From: Deltaproteobacteria bacterium | Lineage (GTDB): Bacteria; Desulfobacterota; Desulfarculia; Adiutricales; JAFDHD01 | NCBI GenBank assembly: GCA_019306365.1 | Contig: JAFDLS010000012.1 | Coordinates: forward strand, 1 to 33,790 | DNA: 33,790 bases | Direction: 5' to 3' | Part shown: positions 2,293 through 11,836 of the stretch, one piece after another | Layout of the letters: each line of letters starts with the position of its first letter | How positions within the stretch are numbered: the stretch's first letter is position 1 | Position numbers and translations under genes: made by a program | Notes under the pieces: generated by a model | The model's database searches: none | Seen by the model: only the letters and a program-made list of their open reading frames with translations | Told to the model about the DNA's origin: nothing

Positions 2293-4080
2293 ATGGTTGA
2301 AACGGACATCATGCAGTATTCCCCGGTAGCTCAATTCGCTATCGGAACGGATCATAAAATCACTCGCTGGAACCGTGCCTGTGAATTACTGACTGGGCGT
2401 TCAGCCGAGGAGATGATCGGAACCGACAGGCATTGGGAACCGTTTTACCCCAATAGGCGGCCGATGTTAGCGGACCTGATTGTGGAACATGACCGGCTGG
2501 GTATCTTAAAACTTTACGGGGAAAAAAAGGTCGCGCGATCAAAAGTAATTCCGCACGCCTGGGAGTCATCAAGCTTTTTTGAAAACGTCGGCGGGCAAGA
2601 ACGCTACCTTCAGTTTCTGGCCGCCCCCATTTTTGACGTCAAGGGCAACATATCAGGGGCGTTAGAAACCTTCCTGGATATCACGGAACAGAAGCATTTC
2701 GAACAGGCTCTTATGCAATCAGAAGAGGGTTATCGCATTCTGGCTGAAAATGTTCCTGACGGGGTGGCGCTTATGCAGGGGGGCGTCTACGTTTTAGTGA
2801 ATCAGGCTTTCGCGCTTCTGTTTGGTTACAATCACCCGGAGCAGCTTATCGGAAAACAGACTAACACGCCTATTGCCCATGAACATAAAGAGCTGTTCAC
2901 TAAAACACTGCAGGCGATTGAGTCGGGAGAACCACACGAAAAGATCCTCAGATGGCGATGTATCACCCGGGACGGCCGCGAGATCTGGGTAGAGGGGCAT
3001 CCCAATTTCGTTAAATGGAAAAACAAGCCCGCCGTGTTGTCGACCGTCATTGACATCACCGAAACCAGATCTCGAGAGGCCGCCATGCAGGAGGAAGCTC
3101 AGCGTCTGAGGCGGGAAAATATCCAACTGAAATCTACTGCAAGTGACCGCTATAAATTTCGAAATATTGTCGGCAAGAGTCAGGTCATGCAGGATGTTTA
3201 CGACCTGATCTTAAAAGCCGCATCCAGCGATGCGAACGTGATTGTCTATGGGGAGTCGGGAACCGGTAAGGAGCTGGTGGCTCGAGCCATCCATGATATA
3301 AGTGACTGCCGGTCTAACTCTTTTGTGGCGGTTAACTGCGGCGCTATTCCTGAAAACCTTTTGGAGAGGGAGTTCTTCGGGCACAAGAAAGGGGCCTTTA
3401 CAGGCGCGCATAAGGACACCGGCGGCTTTTTGGATCAGGCTGACGGCGGCACTTTATTCCTGGACGAAGTGGGGGAACTGAGCGTCAATTTACAGGTCAA
3501 GCTGCTGCGGGCTATTGAAGACGGCGAGTATACGCCGGTTGGGGGCAACAAGTCTAAAAGGTCGAATTTCAGGATAATAGCGGCCACACTAAAAAACCTG
3601 GTGGAACAGGTGCGGAAAGGCCATATGAGGGAAGATTTTTTCTATAGAATTCATATCATCCCCATACAGGTGCCTCCCTTGAGAGACCGCATGGAAGATA
3701 TTCCATTTTTGGTGGATTATTTTCTGCAGTCCTCTGACGCGAATGAGAAGCTCGTTACCATTCCGCCCGCGATCATGAAGGCCCTGTACAATTATGACTG
3801 GCCCGGAAATGTGAGGGAGCTTCAAAACGCCCTGTCCCGTTACTTGGTCGTCGGACGCCTCGATTTTATACATTCAGAGGACACTTCAGTCGACGCCGGT
3901 GAAGATGTTTTAGAGGAGATTGGGGTTGCCAACCTCAAGTCCGCGGTCGAGCGTCTTGAAAGAAGCATCATTTCCGATGCGCTCAAGCAGACGAACTGGA
4001 ACCGAACCAAAGCGGCCTCCTTACTGGGCATCCCTCGCAAGACTCTTTTCAGGAAGATGAAGAAGATAGGGATACAATGA
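2293..4080 (+). CDS. PAS-domain sigma-54-dependent transcriptional activator (Fis-type HTH)
   Basis: Two PAS-like regions, AAA+ with GESGTGKELVARAIH and GAFTGA, WPGNVRELQNAL, C-terminal TKAASLLGIPRKTLFRKMKK HTH. Confidence 0.95.
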   Translation: MVETDIMQYSPVAQFAIGTDHKITRWNRACELLTGRSAEEMIGTDRHWEPFYPNRRPMLADLIVEHDRLGILKLYGEKKVARSKVIPHAWESSSFFENVGGQERYLQFLAAPIFDVKGNISGALETFLDITEQKHFEQALMQSEEGYRILAENVPDGVALMQGGVYVLVNQAFALLFGYNHPEQLIGKQTNTPIAHEHKELFTKTLQAIESGEPHEKILRWRCITRDGREIWVEGHPNFVKWKNKPAVLSTVIDITETRSREAAMQEEAQRLRRENIQLKSTASDRYKFRNIVGKSQVMQDVYDLILKAASSDANVIVYGESGTGKELVARAIHDISDCRSNSFVAVNCGAIPENLLEREFFGHKKGAFTGAHKDTGGFLDQADGGTLFLDEVGELSVNLQVKLLRAIEDGEYTPVGGNKSKRSNFRIIAATLKNLVEQVRKGHMREDFFYRIHIIPIQVPPLRDRMEDIPFLVDYFLQSSDANEKLVTIPPAIMKALYNYDWPGNVRELQNALSRYLVVGRLDFIHSEDTSVDAGEDVLEEIGVANLKSAVERLERSIISDALKQTNWNRTKAASLLGIPRKTLFRKMKKIGIQ

Positions 4081-4087
4081 CCCTGTT

Positions 4088-4104
4088 TGGACGTTTTTGT
4101 CCCA
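4088..4104. promoter_or_regulatory. Putative UAS 1 for the adjacent sigma-54 activator
   Basis: TGGACGTTTTTGTCCCA; palindromic arms GGAC-N6-GTCC; identical copy at 4159-4175. Confidence 0.7.
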
Positions 4105-4158: not shown

Positions 4159-4175
4159 TGGACGTTTTTGTCCCA
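4159..4175. promoter_or_regulatory. Putative UAS 2 for the adjacent sigma-54 activator
   Basis: TGGACGTTTTTGTCCCA, identical 17-mer 71 bp from UAS 1 (about 7 helical turns). Confidence 0.7.
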
Positions 4176-4261: not shown

Positions 4262-4276
4262 TGGCACGCATGTTGC
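4262..4276 (+). promoter_or_regulatory. Sigma-54 (-24/-12) promoter
   Basis: TGGCAC-GCATG-TTGC matches the sigma-54 consensus TGGCAC-N5-TTGC; downstream of UAS pair and upstream of dctP. Confidence 0.85.
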
Positions 4277-4344: not shown

Positions 4345-5421
4345 ATGAGAAAAATTTTTTTTCTGTCAACATTAATTTTATTAATGGCTTGCTTTTTATT
4401 CAGCGGTTTCGGTCAAGGCTCAGCCCTTGCCGCTTCCAAGCAAAAAAACTACGAGTTAAGTTTCACCAGTAACTACATGGACAAGCACCCCACGGTAAGA
4501 AACGCCTTTATACCCTGGGCGAAAGAGGTGGAGAACCTTAGCCAGGGACGGTTAAAAATAACCTATTTTAATCCCAATACACTGGCGCCCGCAAAGGACG
4601 CGTATGATTCCACATTAAATGGAGTTCTTGATATTGGCGCGTGTTATTGCGGTTTTAATCCAGGCAAATTCCCGGTGAGCGACGTTATGGAGTTACCTCT
4701 GATCGTTCCGGGCGCTGAGGCGGGCAGCCTGGTAACCTGGGATCTGTATAATAAATTCCCCGAGTGGCAGGCTCAATATAAGGATGTAAAGATGCTGTGG
4801 CAGTGGTCGAGCGCCACTTATCAAATCCACACCACCAAAAAGCTGATTCAAAAACCCAGCGACTTGAAAGGGTTGAAGATCATCGGCTGGAGCCCCATAC
4901 TTCTTGAAATTTTAAAAGCGTTAGGGGCAAACCCCATGCATATCTCTCCGACCGATACCTATCTGGCCCTGCAGCGAGGCATGGCGGACGGCGTTGTTTG
5001 CCCGCTGGCCCCGGTCAGATCCTACAAGATCAGCGATGCCACGAAATACCATACCATTATTGACCTGAACGTCGGTCCTTTCTGGGCGGGCATCAATAAG
5101 GACCTGTGGAATGATCTTCCGGCAGACCTTAAAAAGATTCTCGATGAAACAACCGGCGTGAAAATGGCCAGGGCGAGTGGAAAGACTCTGGACGACGGAG
5201 CCGCTGAGGACGCTCAGTGGATGAAATCCAAGGGACATAAGTTCTACGTGGTCCCGGAGCAGGATAAAAAAGAATGGTACGCGAAGATTGAATACATGCA
5301 TCAGGACTGGGTGAAGAAGATGGAAGCCAAGGGCTGCAAGAACGCTCAGGCTATCCTGGATGAAGCTGTCAGGTTGGGCAAGGAGTACGCAAAAACCACA
5401 GGCAGAGGCTATGTAGATTAG
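4345..5421 (+). CDS. dctP: TRAP transporter substrate-binding protein (DctP family)
   Basis: Signal peptide then DctP-like sequence (GVLDIGACYCGF, PSDLKGLKI, GMADGVVCP); followed by fused TRAP permease gene. Confidence 0.88.
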   Translation: MRKIFFLSTLILLMACFLFSGFGQGSALAASKQKNYELSFTSNYMDKHPTVRNAFIPWAKEVENLSQGRLKITYFNPNTLAPAKDAYDSTLNGVLDIGACYCGFNPGKFPVSDVMELPLIVPGAEAGSLVTWDLYNKFPEWQAQYKDVKMLWQWSSATYQIHTTKKLIQKPSDLKGLKIIGWSPILLEILKALGANPMHISPTDTYLALQRGMADGVVCPLAPVRSYKISDATKYHTIIDLNVGPFWAGINKDLWNDLPADLKKILDETTGVKMARASGKTLDDGAAEDAQWMKSKGHKFYVVPEQDKKEWYAKIEYMHQDWVKKMEAKGCKNAQAILDEAVRLGKEYAKTTGRGYVD

Positions 5422-5512
5422 GGATTCCCCTTGAGTGAGCCTGCGGATGTATTTTTCCTCCTTGTTTTAACCGCAGGTTCACTTTCAAACCGAATTGAAC
5501 CGGGAGTAAAAA

Positions 5513-7474
5513 ATGGGTACCCGAATTTTGACCGCAGATAAAAGCTCGGCCATCAATTCAAATAAAGGATACACGATGATTGATGCGTGGATAGATGCAA
5601 TCGTGCGTCTTCTTGAAAAGATAATTACCCCTATAAGCCGGAAGCTGGATACTCTCAGCGCCCTGATGGCGGGCATCATGTCCATCCCAATCTTCTTTGA
5701 TGTCCTGGCTCGCTTAATTTTTGGCAAATCCATTCCGGGAATCATCGAACTTGAAGAGTTCATGATGGTCCTGATCGTATTTCTCGCGCTGGCTTTTACT
5801 CAAATACAAAAAGAGCACGTGGATATAAACCTGGTTTTTTCAAGGTTTCCCAAGTGGGTCCAGAACCTCATTGAAACCTTCAATTACTCGATCTGCCTGA
5901 TTGTGTTTTCTTTGATGAGCTGGCAGACCGTTATCCAGGTGATAAAAAAGTTCGGGGAGGTCAGCTTTTCCCTGGGAATCCCGATTTCCATTTTTCTGGG
6001 AGTTGCCGCGTTCGGCGTCATACTGCTTACCATTGTCCTTTTAGCCGATCTTTTAAGATCTATTTCCGTGGTCATCAAAGAAGGAAAATGGCTCGGGCTG
6101 ATGGTTGCTTTCTCCCTGGCCGCGCTTCTCCTGGCCTCACCGTTTCTCATTAAGATGCTGCCCGGCCGTTTCGGCGGGCTTTCGTTAGGCATGATCGGGA
6201 TGGTTCTCCTCTTCATACTGCTTCTGCTCAAAATGCCGATTGGATACGCGATGGCCGTGACTGGATTTTTGGGGATGCTCATCATTAGCAAAAAGGTGGC
6301 GGCCCCCCTCAGCATTCTGGGTATCGCGCCTTATCATTCCACTGCTTCTTTTATCATGGCCGTGGTGCCGCTGTTCATCCTTATGGGCGAGTTGGCCTTC
6401 TACAGCGGGATCAGTAAAGACCTTTTTGACGCCGCCAATAAATGGCTGGGCCGATTGCCAGGCGGTCTTTCCATGGCTTCGGTCGCGGGATGCGCCGGGT
6501 TTGCGGCCGTCTGCGGAGACAGCATGTCCACCGCCGTCACCATGGGCGCGGTGTCTTTACCTGAAATGGAAAAGAAGAAATACAGCCCCAGCCTGGCTAC
6601 GGGCAGCTTGGCTGCCGGCGGCACGCTGGGCATTTTAATACCGCCGAGCGTGGGGTTTATATTCTACGCCATCATTACCGAGGAATCCGTGGGGAAACTC
6701 TTTATCGCGGGCATACTCCCCGGTCTGCTCCTCGCGACCCTGTTTATGCTGAGCATTTTCCTTATGGCTCTGTATAAGCCGCAGATGGCTCCCCGCGGCG
6801 ACAGGACCTCCTTCGAGGAAAAATTAATTTCCTTAAAAGGCGTCATTCCCATGCTCCTGTTGTTTTTCCTGATTCTGGGTGGAATACTGGGAGGCATTTT
6901 CAGCCCCACCGAGGGCGGCGGTATCGGCGCGGTGGGCGCCTTTCTTTACGCTTTGGCCAGAAGACGAATCTCGAAGGAAAACCTGATGGCCGCGTTAAAG
7001 GAAACCGCCAAACTGACAACCAAACTCCTGTTTATCTTAATCGGCGTGGGTATCCTGGGTTATTTCCTGGCTGCTACCCGCCTACCTTTCATTTTGTCGG
7101 ACGTCGTAACCGGGCTCCCGTTCGGCCGTCATGTCATCCTCGGGGCGGTGCTTTTGCTTTTCATCGTCCTGGGCTGTTTGATGAACGTTATTCCCATGAT
7201 TCTGCTCACCCTGCCGGCAATTTTCCCTTCTATCATCGCGTTGGGATTCGATCCGATCTGGTTCGGCGTGGTGACGGTGATCGTGATGGAAATGGGTCAG
7301 ATTACCCCGCCCATTGGCGTGAATGTATTCGCCTTGAGCAGCGTGGCAACGGAGGTGCCTCTGGAAACCATTTTCAAGGGTGTTTTACCCTTTTTCGTGT
7401 GTATGGTCCTTTGTGTAATTATTCTTATCATCTTCCCGCAGATCGCGACATTTTTACCCAATCTGCTTTTTTAA
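5513..7474 (+). CDS. dctQM: TRAP transporter fused small/large permease (DctQ-DctM)
   Basis: N-terminal four-TM DctQ-like region joined to DctM-like region (GDSMSTAVTMGAVSLPEM, GGTLGILIPPSVGFIFYAIITEESVGKLFIAGILPG, EMGQITPPIGVNVFAL). An alternative start is ATG 5576. Confidence 0.92.
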   Translation: MGTRILTADKSSAINSNKGYTMIDAWIDAIVRLLEKIITPISRKLDTLSALMAGIMSIPIFFDVLARLIFGKSIPGIIELEEFMMVLIVFLALAFTQIQKEHVDINLVFSRFPKWVQNLIETFNYSICLIVFSLMSWQTVIQVIKKFGEVSFSLGIPISIFLGVAAFGVILLTIVLLADLLRSISVVIKEGKWLGLMVAFSLAALLLASPFLIKMLPGRFGGLSLGMIGMVLLFILLLLKMPIGYAMAVTGFLGMLIISKKVAAPLSILGIAPYHSTASFIMAVVPLFILMGELAFYSGISKDLFDAANKWLGRLPGGLSMASVAGCAGFAAVCGDSMSTAVTMGAVSLPEMEKKKYSPSLATGSLAAGGTLGILIPPSVGFIFYAIITEESVGKLFIAGILPGLLLATLFMLSIFLMALYKPQMAPRGDRTSFEEKLISLKGVIPMLLLFFLILGGILGGIFSPTEGGGIGAVGAFLYALARRRISKENLMAALKETAKLTTKLLFILIGVGILGYFLAATRLPFILSDVVTGLPFGRHVILGAVLLLFIVLGCLMNVIPMILLTLPAIFPSIIALGFDPIWFGVVTVIVMEMGQITPPIGVNVFALSSVATEVPLETIFKGVLPFFVCMVLCVIILIIFPQIATFLPNLLF

Positions 7475-7501
7475 CAGCGGGTTCAGGGAATAGGTATGAA
7501 T

Positions 7502-7619
7502 GAGACCTCTGCAAAACCAGTAATTTTGTTGAAATCGCGGAAGGCGAAAATTTAACCCGCAGGAATATTACTAATATTTCGAGGACTTAAATTTGAGCCT
7601 GACAAAGAGGTCAGGTCTC
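7502..7619 (+). mobile_element. MITE-like element, family 1, copy B (right end truncated)
   Basis: GAGACCTCTGCAAAACCAGTAATTTTGTTGAAATCGCGGAAGGCGAAAA... shared with copies at 16913 and 23889; ends GGTCTC; 4-bp GAAT on both flanks. Confidence 0.75.
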
Positions 7620-7683
7620 GAATGGGATTTAAATAAAACAATTGATTTTAGGCTGTTATTGTCGTCAAGGAGGTTTCGTTAAA

Positions 7684-9605
7684 ATGGCAAAAAAACCAAA
7701 AAAAGTGGCGGTTATCGGGCTTGATTGCGCCTTGCCGCACATGATTGAAAAACATATCGAAGAAGGCTACCTTCCCACCTTTAAGAAACTGCGTGACAAA
7801 GGCGTGTGGGCTGACAACTGTCTGGTGCCTTTCCCCACGGTGACCCCGCCCAACTGGGCGGCCATCGCCACGGGCGCTTTCTCAGGAACCACGGGCATCA
7901 CTGATTTTCACTACCATTCGGAAGGAGAGGAGCTGGATAACTCTCATATCAGGCAGAATTTCAGCAGCGAGCGCTGTCAGGCGGAATATATCTGGGACGC
8001 CCTGGACAAGGAAGGTAAAAAATGTATTGTCTTGAACTACCCTTCTTCCTGGCCCGGAAAAATGGAAAACGGGATCCTGGTGGGTGGTACAGGTATGACC
8101 ATCGGCGAAACCCGGGCCAATCTTCCCCAGCTCGATATGACCTTTTCCGTGTCCGCTGATCAACTGGTCACGACCGGCTTTTATCCGAACGCGATTCGAG
8201 GTGAATTCCAGGACGCTGAGGACTGGGAAAACGTCGATGAACTGCGAGATGATCCTCTGGAAATGGTTGTTCCGCTCAAGTTTAACGAGGCGGAGATCCA
8301 GCCGGTCGACACCACCTGGTATCTGCTGGCCAGGGAAAATGAGGATGGGGATTATGACAGGGTCACCCTTTCACCCGGCCGGGATTTCAATGATGCCTTT
8401 TGTACCCTCAAGGTAGGTGAATGGAGTTCTAAAATTGTCACGAATATCAAGTTTCCTGACGGATCCGATCATGAGGTTTTTTTCAGGTGTAAGCTCATAG
8501 AGCTTTCTGATGACGCGGAAGATCTTCGTTTTTTGATCGGGGCCATGGTGGAGAACGACGGGTGGACTTCTCCGGCGGAAATCGCCAAAGAGCTTGTTTC
8601 CGAAGAGGGCTGTTTCCACGCCGCCGGCGGAATGGTCATGACCATGCTGGGTTTGATCGATTATGACACCTACGTTGAGATGAACGATCACCTCTCTATC
8701 TGGATGGCGGACGCGGCGACCACGCTGATGCAGAATCACGAGTGGGATCTGTTTTTTATGCATTCTCATCCCATTGACTGGATGTACCATGTTCTGATTT
8801 CACAGCTGGAAAGTCCGGACGAGAAGGTACGCGCCAAGGCCTGGGAAGCCCATCGTAAAATGTATGAGGTTGAAGACCGCATGCTTGCCCGGCTTCTTGA
8901 GGCCGCTGGTAAGGATACCCTGATAGTGTTGGTGTCAGATCACGGCGCCACACCTGACGGACCCACCTTCGATCCGTACAAAGCCTTGGTGCCGGCGGGC
9001 TTATCCGCGATCGTTGAAAAGGAAAAAAGCGATGAGCTTGATCTCAGGGAAAAAATCTTGAGCCTTAGTACCTCTGAGGTTGATATCGCGCAAAGCAAGG
9101 CCATTCCCCAGCGTGAGATCTATATCTACGTGAACCTCAAGGGCCGTGATAAAGGCGGCATTGTTGAGCCTGAGGACTATGAAAAGGTCCAGCAGGAGAT
9201 CATAGACGCCCTGTATGGATACGTGGATCCTGAAACCGGCAAGCGGCCGATAGCTTTAGCCCTGACCAAGCAGGATGCGCGTCTGTTAGGGCTTCACGGG
9301 GATCGCGTCGGTGACGTGGTTTACGCGGTTCAGCCCTGGTTTGGGAGTCAGCACGGCCAGATACTGCCCACTGCCACACAAGGTGTGGGATCGCTGAAAG
9401 GTCTGTTATGCCTGACCGGTCCTGGCGTCAAAAAGGGATTTTCCCTGTGCCGGAAAATGTTGAGGGCGCTGTCATTTACCAGGCTTTTAAAGACCCGAAC
9501 TTCAAGATGAAAGAAATCAAGAAGCTCAAAGACGGGTTGGCCAGGATGGAAGCGGCTCTGGAACGCGGCAGCCGTGAACCCTGGGACCACCATGATTGTG
9601 CCTAG
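7684..9605 (+). CDS. Alkaline phosphatase superfamily / type I phosphodiesterase-nucleotide pyrophosphatase protein, frame-disrupted near the C-terminus
   Basis: MAKKPKKVAVIGLDCALPHMIEK..., VTPPNWAAIATGAFSGTTGITDFHYH, SDHGATPDG. RBS AAGGAGG before ATG 7684. The 7642 ORF runs to 9510; homologous-looking C-terminus PVPENVEGAVIYQAFKDPNFKMKEIKKL... continues in another frame to 9605; junction about 9430-9450. Confidence 0.8.
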
Positions 9606-9707
9606 TAATCAGGCCTGAAAGGAAGACGGGGCGGCTTAATAAGCTCCCTGTCTTCCGGTAAAACCTGGTGTTATTTTTATGTTTATTATGTCAAAGAGGA
9701 AAATAAA

Positions 9708-9989
9708 ATGCTGTTCGTCCTAAATAAATTACAAAATAATATTGGTGAATTGATTCAAATGCTGGGAGGACCCGAGGATAAATCCCTGCTGCTTATTGGT
9801 GACGCGGTGAATTACGGCTCACCGTATATGGTTGAAAAATTGAAACCTCTTTTCGTTGAAGATATCTATGTGGCCGGGGACGCGCTGGAAACCAGGAATG
9901 TAGATCTTGCTCCTGATTGCCAGGTGGTCGATTACGATGAGATTGTTTCGATGATAATGGATGAAGACGAAAAAGTGCTTGCGATATAA
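9708..9989 (+). CDS. DsrH/TusB-like sulfur-relay family protein
   Basis: Small protein, LLLIGDAVNYG...VEDIYVAGDALETRNVDLAPDCQVVDYDEIVSMI, DsrH-like; next to DsrE- and DsrF-like genes. Confidence 0.65.
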   Translation: MLFVLNKLQNNIGELIQMLGGPEDKSLLLIGDAVNYGSPYMVEKLKPLFVEDIYVAGDALETRNVDLAPDCQVVDYDEIVSMIMDEDEKVLAI

Positions 9990-10000
9990 AAGGAGTTTTG

Positions 10001-10399
10001 ATGCCGAAAACATTAACTATAATGCTGTTATCCGGCGCCGCCGAGAATGAGGATTCTATTTTTGCCGTTAAACTGACGAAAGCGGCCCTGAAAAGAGGTC
10101 ATAAAGTAAACATCTTTCTTTACGGAAACGGCGTGAATCTTTCAAAAAAGGAAACAACCATCCAGGGCCCCCTTCACATTGCGGAAAGGCTGCTTAACCA
10201 TATTGAAGATACCAAAATGGGTAAAGAGATGGAAGAAGTCATTAAGATGGGCGCGAACATCGCGACGTGCCATACCAATGAACATGCCAGGGGGATTGAG
10301 GCCTGCGAGTACATAGAGGGTGTCAAATGGGGTGATATCGGCCACACCTTTTGCGACTTCCTCCTGACGTCCGATGTTCTTTTGGCGCTGAACCACTGA
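10001..10399 (+). CDS. DsrE/TusD-like family protein
   Basis: MPKTLTIMLLSGAAENEDSIFAVKLTKAALKRGHKVNIFLYGNGV...IATCHTNEHARGI; RBS AGGAG before ATG 10001. Confidence 0.8.
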   Translation: MPKTLTIMLLSGAAENEDSIFAVKLTKAALKRGHKVNIFLYGNGVNLSKKETTIQGPLHIAERLLNHIEDTKMGKEMEEVIKMGANIATCHTNEHARGIEACEYIEGVKWGDIGHTFCDFLLTSDVLLALNH

Positions 10400-10409
10400 G
10401 GAAATAACG

Positions 10410-10742
10410 ATGATTGATTCGATATGCGTGATAGTAACAAGACCGCAGGGTGAAGAGCGTTCCGCCCTGGGAATAAGGACGTCGTGGGCAACCCTGCAGT
10501 CCGCTATAGTGACGAAGATACTCTTCGTGGAAAATGGAGTCTACAGTCTCCTGAAAAATCCTGGATACAATGCCGCCATGCTCAGGGATTTTATTGACGA
10601 AGACGGAGAGGTTTATTGTACAAAAGGCAGCCTGGATTCCAGGGGCTTATCTGAGGAAAATCTCGTGGATGGCATTAAAGTCATCCCTGAAGAACAGGTG
10701 GCTGCATTAATCGAGGATTGCGAATCCGTGGCCGTGTTTTAA
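10410..10742 (+). CDS. DsrF/TusC-like family protein
   Basis: ICVIVTRPQGEERSALGIRTSWATLQSAIVTKILFVENGVYSLLKNPGYN...; third member of the trio. Confidence 0.65.
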   Translation: MIDSICVIVTRPQGEERSALGIRTSWATLQSAIVTKILFVENGVYSLLKNPGYNAAMLRDFIDEDGEVYCTKGSLDSRGLSEENLVDGIKVIPEEQVAALIEDCESVAVF

Positions 10743-10783
10743 AAATCTATAGTTAATAACTACTCATCAAAAGGAGAACAACA

Positions 10784-11212
10784 GTGAGTACTTTTGTAAC
10801 ATACAAGCGCGAAAGCGACAACGAAGACGTTTTCACTCTAGGCGCAAAAAGCCTTCCTGAGTTACGCATTGATTATACAAGCCTGACCAAAGAAGAGAGG
10901 AATTCTGAACATATGGGCGCCCGGCTGGTCCTGTGCGCCGCTTTGGCCTGTTTTACAAACACATTTGCGAACGCCATGATAAATGAGGGCGCGAAGATCA
11001 ATTCAATGTCAGCCACGGCAACCATAGAAAAAGAAAAAGATGATACTTTCAGGACACATTATACCAATATCCTAATACAACTCGAGGTTGGCGTGGACGA
11101 CGCCGATGCGCCGGTTTTTGAGAGAGTCCGCTCAAATATGATAAATGGTTCCCTGCTTACTTACTCTTTGGATGAGGGCATTGAGATGGATTATGATATT
11201 AGCCGGGCGTAA
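10784..11212 (+). CDS. OsmC family protein
   Basis: MSTFVTYKRESDNEDVFTLGAKS...EHMGARLVLCAALACFTNTFANAM...; OsmC-like size, fold pattern and cysteine placement. Confidence 0.7.
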   Translation: MSTFVTYKRESDNEDVFTLGAKSLPELRIDYTSLTKEERNSEHMGARLVLCAALACFTNTFANAMINEGAKINSMSATATIEKEKDDTFRTHYTNILIQLEVGVDDADAPVFERVRSNMINGSLLTYSLDEGIEMDYDISRA

Positions 11213-11374
11213 TGTGCACAATTCTTGTTTTTTAATATAGTCACATATACTTCTTTTTGCTTCCCCAGTTTTTTCCCGGGGAAAATAGCTGTCATTCTTA
11301 GACATTTATATTGACGGTCCCAGCGCTTCTGATTATGATGCACCCAGAGATTAATATCAGGGGGTGGCTGACAA

Positions 11375-11836
11375 TTGCAGCTCCGTAAAAGCCGGGTCAC
11401 GGATGTACCGCTCATTTATGAATTACTGACCGAACTGGGTCAAAAAGGTCTGCTTCTGCCTCGCTCTTTGAGCGAGCTTTACGATGTGGTGCGTGACTTT
11501 TTTGTCGCTCATCCCGACGGCGAACCTGAAACCCTGGCCGGAACGTGCGCTCTGCATATATGCTGGGCTGACCTGGGAGAGGTTCGTTCCCTGGCCGTAG
11601 ATTCATCATATTGCGGTCAGGATCTTGGCCGCCGGCTTGTTGAAGAGTGTATCGCGGAGGCTAGGGAAATCGGTCTGAAGCGTCTTTTCGCCTTGACCTA
11701 CATTCCTGATTATTTCATGAAGTTCGATTTCAAGCTCATTGAAAAAAACGAACTTCCCCAGAAGATCTGGGCCGACTGCTTTAAGTGCGTCAAATTTCCC
11801 GAGTGTAACGAGGTGGCGCTCGTAAAAGACCTGTAA
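11375..11836 (+). CDS. GNAT N-acetyltransferase, ArgA/N-acetylglutamate synthase-like
   Basis: MQLRKSRVTDVPLIYELLTELGQKGLLLPRSLSELYDVVRDFFVA...EVRSLAVDSSYCGQDLGRRLVEECIAEAREIGLKRLFALTY..FKLIEKNELPQKIWADC; TTG start. Confidence 0.85.
   Translation: MQLRKSRVTDVPLIYELLTELGQKGLLLPRSLSELYDVVRDFFVAHPDGEPETLAGTCALHICWADLGEVRSLAVDSSYCGQDLGRRLVEECIAEAREIGLKRLFALTYIPDYFMKFDFKLIEKNELPQKIWADCFKCVKFPECNEVALVKDL

Follow-up and report, generated by a model that had tools for sequence, protein, structure and literature searches.

A candidate sigma-54-controlled uptake and processing operon with a cysteine arm and a DsrHEF trio in a deltaproteobacterial genome

The window analyzed here is a stretch of 33,790 nucleotides from a deltaproteobacterium (contig JAFDLS010000012.1, or C275), which belongs to a 3.59-Mb metagenome-assembled genome (MAG; G000) of 383 contigs that is 90.5% complete. 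On its + strand lie the genes for a TRAP transporter whose complement, DctP, DctQ and DctM, is complete in the window; an alkaline-phosphatase-superfamily enzyme, called PDE here; three proteins resembling DsrH, DsrE and DsrF (DsrHEF, or the trio); and an OsmC-like protein. Judged from sequence comparison, these are parts of known kinds that together form a conserved system, undescribed so far. The enzyme, or a partner protein in relatives, ends in an arm with a penultimate cysteine. The reading that we favor, at a probability of roughly one half, is a sigma-54-controlled operon for uptake and processing in which this arm takes part in a relay.

The gene set and its recurrence

Gene families in the window were assigned by Pfam and NCBIfam profile searches, while genes outside it were called by a simple script and cross-checked against the window proteins by blastp and tblastn. 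All genes named in an earlier note, made from the window alone, were recovered on the + strand where it had placed them (Table 1). The grouping proposed there depended on a neighborhood conserved in relatives, and conserved it is: PDE, OsmC, DsrHEF, an importer and a sigma-54 regulator recur together across two phyla. Here, tblastn searches and gene maps give a near-constant core of PDE, OsmC and DsrH-E-F, which is accompanied by one of three importer types. The order is PDE-DctP-DctQM-regulator-OsmC-H-E-F in the TRAP type (L050, L088 and L090; L089 starts inside DctP) and BCCT-PDE-H-E-F-OsmC-small protein-EamA-regulator in the BCCT type; in the ABC type, OsmC-H-E-F stands with a TauT/Ssu-type ABC transporter. 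SaoA and SaoP are the best-named matches in the ABC variant, and a selenocysteine-assisted organometal (Sao) system was rejected at scores that are far below cut-off; no paper on Sao was found.

The DsrE-like protein was found by search in 4 of the 63 genomes of the window's class, which includes Desulfarculus and is most likely Desulfarculia, in 19 of a sample of 297 Desulfovibrionia genomes, and in 1 of 395 genomes sampled across the phylum, that one being the window's own. Named carriers are a Pseudodesulfovibrio MAG (the class of L008, such a MAG, is taken as Desulfovibrionia), a Desulfovibrionaceae MAG, Desulfovibrio sp. DV, a Desulfarculus MAG and a Chloroflexi MAG. The earlier note knew of no pathway with this gene combination, and no description of the cluster was found in the PMC literature. 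In addition, at L046:13536-14639 (contig C41) of a genome of the same genus (G001), OsmC-DsrHEF genes follow a same-strand gene which, by eye, resembles pyridoxal-phosphate enzymes of Cys/Met metabolism; no PDE lies near them.

By the same comparison, the conserved unit in the window ends with OsmC. The earlier note had included the GNAT gene that follows, and this part of the grouping was dropped: the gene is separated by a gap, encodes an ArgA-like acetyltransferase of the PRK07757 family (190.8 bits, cut-off 154), stands beside M23 peptidase, secA and argJ genes, and was not found in the clusters of relatives. The absence of dsrAB and dsrC from the window was noted correctly; the genome encodes them elsewhere, on C237 and C82.

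The sigma-54 promoter placed by the earlier note upstream of these genes is a perfect site. It is preceded by the gene for a sigma-54-dependent activator and by a pair of identical repeats, for which 0.12 occurrences are expected at up to 3 mismatches. Control of the operon by the adjoining activator is plausible, because sigma-54-like sites also lie upstream of PDE, BCCT or OsmC genes in the clusters of relatives. The stretch between dctQM and the PDE gene contains, at 7502-7619, an imperfect inverted repeat of 29 nt, which may represent a small mobile element or an attenuator. A terminator was rejected at this point: there is an imperfect repeat, with no terminator call and no Rfam match.

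Table 1. Features of the locus in window coordinates
Feature	Position	Strand	Evidence or remark
Sigma-54-dependent activator, PAS-PAS-AAA+-Fis HTH	2293-4080	+	homologue beside most relatives' clusters
Two identical 17-bp repeats TGGACGTTTTTGTCCCA	4088-4104, 4159-4175	+	candidate activator binding sites
Sigma-54 (-24/-12) promoter TGGCACGCATGTTGC	4262-4276	+	matches TGGCAC-N5-TTGC with no mismatch
DctP TRAP solute-binding protein	4345-5421	+	PF03480, 2e-39
Fused DctQM TRAP permease	5513-7474	+	PF04290, 7e-23; PF06808, 3e-96
PDE, NPP-like cytoplasmic metalloenzyme, type I phosphodiesterase	7684-9510	+	PF01663, 2e-34
PDE remainder in displaced frame	9443-9605	+	ends in arm REPWDHHDCA-stop
DsrH/TusB-like	9708-9989	+	PF04077, 5e-5; 23.8 bits, just under cut-off of 24.4
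DsrE/TusD-like	10001-10399	+	PF02635, 8e-8; invariant Cys90 (codon 10268-10270) in TCHTxEx(x)RG
DsrF/TusC-like (DsrE/F-like)	10410-10742	+	PF02635, 1.5e-9
OsmC-like, one cysteine	10784-11212	+	PF02566, 7e-5; 23.5 bits, below cut-off of 27.5
GNAT	11375-11836	+	NF005840

The enzyme, its cysteine arm and the partners of OsmC

The true start of the PDE is the ATG at 7684, which stands behind AGGAGG. Its open reading frame stops early at 9510: compared with two relatives (L011 and L038), the gene is short of exactly 61 nt near 9442, and the true C-terminus is encoded in a different frame that runs up to the stop at 9603-9605. Here, the codons of the arm are preserved: WDHHDCA and the stop occupy 9582-9605, with the cysteine codon at 9597-9599. 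The arm escaped the earlier note because of this frameshift. An assembly error is likelier than a true pseudogene, since dsrA and dsrC of the same MAG show similar deletions and frame changes, both being frame-shifted pieces with model positions missing.

The catalytic residues of the enzyme, namely the metal-ligand set and the Thr nucleophile, are conserved (in L050: D14, T52/T54, D364, H368, D418, H419 and H553) in all sequences that cover each position, with a P at position 52 as the single exception. A cysteine directly follows the first metal-ligand Asp in 33 of 38 sequences, and no formylglycine signature of sulfatases was seen in the PDE. A fold search retrieved the PafA/SPAP alkaline phosphatases, the NPPs, including ENPP6, and phosphonoacetate hydrolase (E from 6e-14 downward). 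The enzyme family has expanded in G001, which has about a dozen PDE paralogues (contigs C2, C10, C36, C70, C82, C85, C93, C167 and C181). Most of these have no cysteine arm, several have acyl-CoA, hydrolase and dipeptide-type ABC genes nearby, and one (L027, C70:16316-17998) has two in-frame TGA codons, which may reflect a frameshift, a pseudogene or recoding.

The arm reads PWD(K/H)HDCA-stop and is carried either by the TRAP-type PDE or by a separate protein of ~190 amino acids. This partner protein occurs in the BCCT and ABC types and its C-terminus matches that of the TRAP-type PDE, while the PDEs of these two types are without the arm end; thus, the arm sits on the enzyme or on the partner, depending on the cluster. 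The partner has no Pfam or NCBIfam match over cut-off. An alignment of 33 partner proteins, whose identity to the first sequence ranges from 26 to 87%, has hardly any invariant columns other than R181 and P186-A193 (PWDKHDCA). The AF2 model of the partner weakly resembles the alkaline-phosphatase superfamily (YejM and sulfatases; E above 0.001). The bodies of the PDE and partner protein are predicted with confidence by AlphaFold (mean predicted local distance difference test, pLDDT, of 90.7 and 91.4) and the arm has a low pLDDT in both, so that it is probably flexible in both proteins.

The arm is coupled to the trio. A DNA pattern for the arm matches 54 of the 297 Desulfovibrionia genomes, with no reversed-pattern control among the matches listed, and all 19 trio genomes of this sample have the arm (hypergeometric 4e-16, kinship not corrected for). 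Genomes with two trios (G444, G542 and G627) have two arms each, and in the window's class the arm is present in 4/4 trio genomes. Several arm-bearing copies of PDE were also seen in Chloroflexota (L036 and L037 in G443:C53; L142 and L143 in G821). In G821, two arm motifs lie 103 nt apart on one contig, with no trio nearby.

The trio genes are contiguous and belong to the DsrE/DsrH superfamily, with PF02635 over cut-off for two of them and PF04077 just under for the third. The earlier note had asked whether the DsrE-like protein has a conserved cysteine, and Cys90 is invariant in 9/9 sequences. This residue aligns with the cysteine of YchN; as alignments to DsrE/TusD end before Cys78, the equivalence to Cys78 is by superfamily. 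The protein matches DsrE (2hy5) weakly, and an equivalent of DsrH Cys20 was sought: no cysteine is near position 20 in 4/4 DsrH-like proteins. More distant relatives of the DsrE-like protein occur in two archaeal MAGs (L014 and L015; Euryarchaeota, Thermoplasmata), the latter near genes that look like those of haem/tetrapyrrole synthesis.

The window OsmC keeps Cys56 (codon 10949-10951), and its resolving cysteine is replaced by Ser123 (11150-11152). Its profile matches E. coli OsmC (1qwi/1nye) at ~2e-5, which places it in the OsmC fold family. Arm genomes of Desulfovibrionia without the trio, where opened, mostly carry BCCT, PDE, arm protein, OsmC, dihydrolipoyl dehydrogenase (Lpd; 462 bits, cut-off 408.8) and a GcvH-like protein. 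The latter bears a lipoyl-lysine motif, and lipoyl synthase sometimes adjoins. Ser occupies the resolving position of OsmC in 26/26 trio loci, and both cysteines are found in 13/13 Lpd loci where OsmC was called; one trio locus (L086) has an additional second OsmC of the two-cysteine form. A maximum-likelihood tree of PDE requires 8 changes of the trio label, with no fewer than 5 of these falling on well-supported branches. Thus, the partners were swapped several times and OsmC tracks its partner, probably traveling with it as a cassette, which argues that the DsrHEF and lipoyl/Lpd modules are functionally equivalent. As far as the databases and literature searched show, neither such an arm on a protein of alkaline-phosphatase fold nor a swap of DsrHEF for the lipoyl module has been described before. 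What comparison of the clusters brings out is the conservation of the unit, the presence of the arm, the arm-trio coupling and the swap of OsmC with its partner.

A proposed relay and its alternatives

The earlier note suggested a small organic acid, or a sulfur/phospho-ester compound, as the imported substrate. The former finds no support in the DctP subfamily, which reads GLKI-I-(G/C/A)-W and is without the Arg of the GLKIR motif, the usual ligand residue of DctP, in 5/5 sequences. Compared with known transporters, the Trp box of BCCT is altered as well. One cluster (L123:12239-17000, G716:C2) has genes for a two-cysteine OsmC, Lpd and a GcvH-like protein, and then directly choline trimethylamine-lyase CutC, and microcompartment genes of the Eut/Cut type lie next to other clusters. 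The importer types, which are those of betaines, sulfonates and small anions, the CutC neighbor and the altered DctP and BCCT motifs would fit an unusual zwitterion or ester better than a plain carboxylate. The system probably takes apart a sulfur- or phosphorus-containing nutrient. Choline-O-sulfate is a possible substrate to which BCCT and the CutC neighbor point, but it sits poorly with the altered Trp box and with a PDE that has no sulfatase signature.

In the reading that we favor, the sigma-54-controlled operon would take up and process a small compound of one class, zwitterionic or anionic, which is imported by TRAP here and by BCCT or a TauT/Ssu-type ABC transporter in relatives. The cytoplasmic metalloenzyme would then act on the compound in a reaction that involves the penultimate cysteine of the flexible arm, which is on the enzyme itself or on a degenerate partner protein. 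This cysteine would acquire an adduct, most likely persulfide sulfur and possibly an S-sulfonate or other thiol adduct. The one-cysteine OsmC and DsrHEF, via Cys90 of DsrE, would take the adduct over, with OsmC resolving it. Sulfur or electrons would be relayed by DsrHEF here, and by the two-cysteine OsmC, the GcvH-like lipoyl carrier and Lpd in related clusters. The final handover would probably be to DsrC/DsrAB, a likely sink as dsrA is over cut-off in all ten trio genomes tested (Chloroflexi MAG included) and a DsrC homologue is present in all 24 genomes tested. Precedent comes from Allochromatium, where sulfur on DsrE Cys78 passes to the penultimate Cys111 of DsrC, which also binds sulfite (PMC3397948); in addition, proteins of the DsrE type are able to bear thiosulfonate groups (PMC4175335). 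The idea of a sulfur relay joined to an importer and an enzyme of the phosphatase superfamily, as put forward in the earlier note, is strengthened by the invariant DsrE cysteine and by the DsrC/TusE-like position of the arm cysteine. We infer the sulfur transfer itself, and likewise which way it runs, what chemistry takes place on the arm and what the substrate is.

Several observations weigh against this relay. The enzyme is frameshifted in this very assembly, and the trio scores far below the TusBCD/DsrEFH cut-offs (TIGR03012, 24.4/89.25; TIGR03010, 33.9/94.15; TIGR03011, 31.2/49.2 bits). In G001, the trio (C41) and arm proteins (C85 and C167) are on different contigs. Order-level relatives (G008, G019, G028, G030 and G034) have the enzyme and arm protein, mostly with an ABC importer, and OsmC or the trio was not detectable in these five genomes. 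Therefore, the relay is not universal, and enzyme, arm and importer can stand alone.

The alternative that survives best, possible if on the unlikely side, is thiol housekeeping: the arm cysteine would be a redox-sensitive catalytic or structural thiol, which OsmC with lipoyl-GcvH/Lpd or DsrHEF reduces or repairs, or these would detoxify peroxides or persulfides. The redox protection proposed in the earlier note lives on in this form as a rival reading. OsmC/Ohr proteins are thiol peroxidases whose disulfides are reduced by lipoylated proteins (PMC5962072), and, save for the extra copy in L086, the two-cysteine OsmC is always found with Lpd and mostly with the lipoyl-lysine GcvH-like protein. 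However, DsrHEF proteins are sulfur carriers and not known reductants, yet they repeatedly replace the lipoyl/Lpd pair; the resolving cysteine of OsmC is lost exactly where DsrE is present; and the geometry of the arm is that of DsrC.

A bolder proposal, which we consider rather doubtful, is that sulfate reducers draw respiratory sulfur from sulfate esters or sulfonates, with no need for activation by ATP. The enzyme would load a sulfo or sulfane group onto its own arm cysteine, and OsmC with the interchangeable DsrHEF or lipoyl/Lpd modules would pass it to the Dsr machinery. Assimilatory adenosine phosphosulfate/phosphoadenosine phosphosulfate reductase also accepts a sulfo group on a C-terminal cysteine arm (Cys-S-SO3-), with a fold unrelated to PDE; unlike for that reductase, we know of no ATP-activated substrate for the present cluster.

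Quite improbable is direct reductive release of sulfite, in which the enzyme moves the sulfo group of an organosulfate or sulfonate to the arm cysteine (Cys-S-SO3-) and the relay frees sulfite for DsrAB. The sulfite binding of DsrC Cys111 and the thiosulfonate cargo of DsrE-type proteins (PMC3397948, PMC4175335), the sulfonate- and betaine-type importers, the cluster beside CutC and the dsrA and dsrC of trio genomes are in its favor. It is opposed by the missing formylglycine signature, by nearest solved relatives that are phosphodiesterases, alkaline phosphatases and phosphonoacetate hydrolase, and by arm-bearing G008 and G034, which are without dsrA over cut-off. An ordinary operon for a phosphorus compound (e.g., a choline phosphodiester), built on a phosphodiesterase or phosphonatase and with DsrHEF/OsmC as a merely linked Tus-like or stress cassette, is very unlikely: the intact catalytic residues of the phosphodiesterase branch, the retrieval of choline-specific ENPP6 and the many G001 paralogues without the cassette agree with it, but it leaves the invariant arm, the arm-trio coupling and the OsmC/partner correlation unexplained, and the cassette has no TusA or TusE and recurs in trio clusters with three importer types.

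If the favored relay is true, sulfur relays of the DsrE type have, besides the acceptor already known, one of another kind, namely a cysteine arm borne by an enzyme of the phosphatase superfamily. DsrHEF and the lipoyl carrier/Lpd would be interchangeable partners of OsmC proteins, for which few physiological partners are known. The relay would also indicate that sulfate reducers use an organic nutrient not recognized so far, some of the clusters lying beside choline-degrading microcompartment genes.

Comparison with known systems

The PDE shares metal ligands, the threonine nucleophile and a matching fold (best E 6e-14) with the NPP/phosphonoacetate hydrolase branch, and differs in being ~12% identical, in a large insertion, in the cysteine after the first ligand Asp and in the HDCA arm. 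The OsmC-like protein belongs with the Ohr/OsmC thiol peroxidases by family and peroxidatic cysteine, and lipoyl-dependent reduction is plausible for the two-cysteine form; the window protein, however, is without the resolving cysteine and accompanies DsrHEF.

The sHdr-LbpA system of dissimilatory sulfur oxidation employs lipoate carriers that resemble GcvH and have a dedicated lipoylation (PMC6067878). The likeness lies in a lipoyl carrier of this GcvH-like kind, at times accompanied by dihydrolipoyl dehydrogenase, that is linked to DsrE-type carriers, and in the lipoyl synthase gene beside some clusters; here, the lipoyl and DsrE-type modules alternate between clusters. Unlike sHdr-LbpA, the present clusters are in sulfate reducers and come with an importer, PDE and OsmC. 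No Hdr-like complex was noticed in the clusters read by eye, and no search aimed at Hdr genes was made.

With DsrEFH-DsrC and TusBCD-TusE, the gene set has in common three contiguous small genes of the DsrE superfamily, a conserved cysteine in the DsrE member and, at a C-terminus, a flexible arm whose penultimate residue is a cysteine. It differs in scores far under the family cut-offs, in its linkage to an importer and OsmC, in having no TusA and in a DsrH without a cysteine near position 20; the arm, moreover, is on an alkaline-phosphatase fold and not on that of DsrC/TusE. The closest parallel to the arm proteins themselves is DsrC/TusE, whose penultimate cysteine is likewise on a flexible C-terminal arm, whereas the arm carriers here are a PF01663 enzyme and a partner protein that is weakly alkaline-phosphatase-like.

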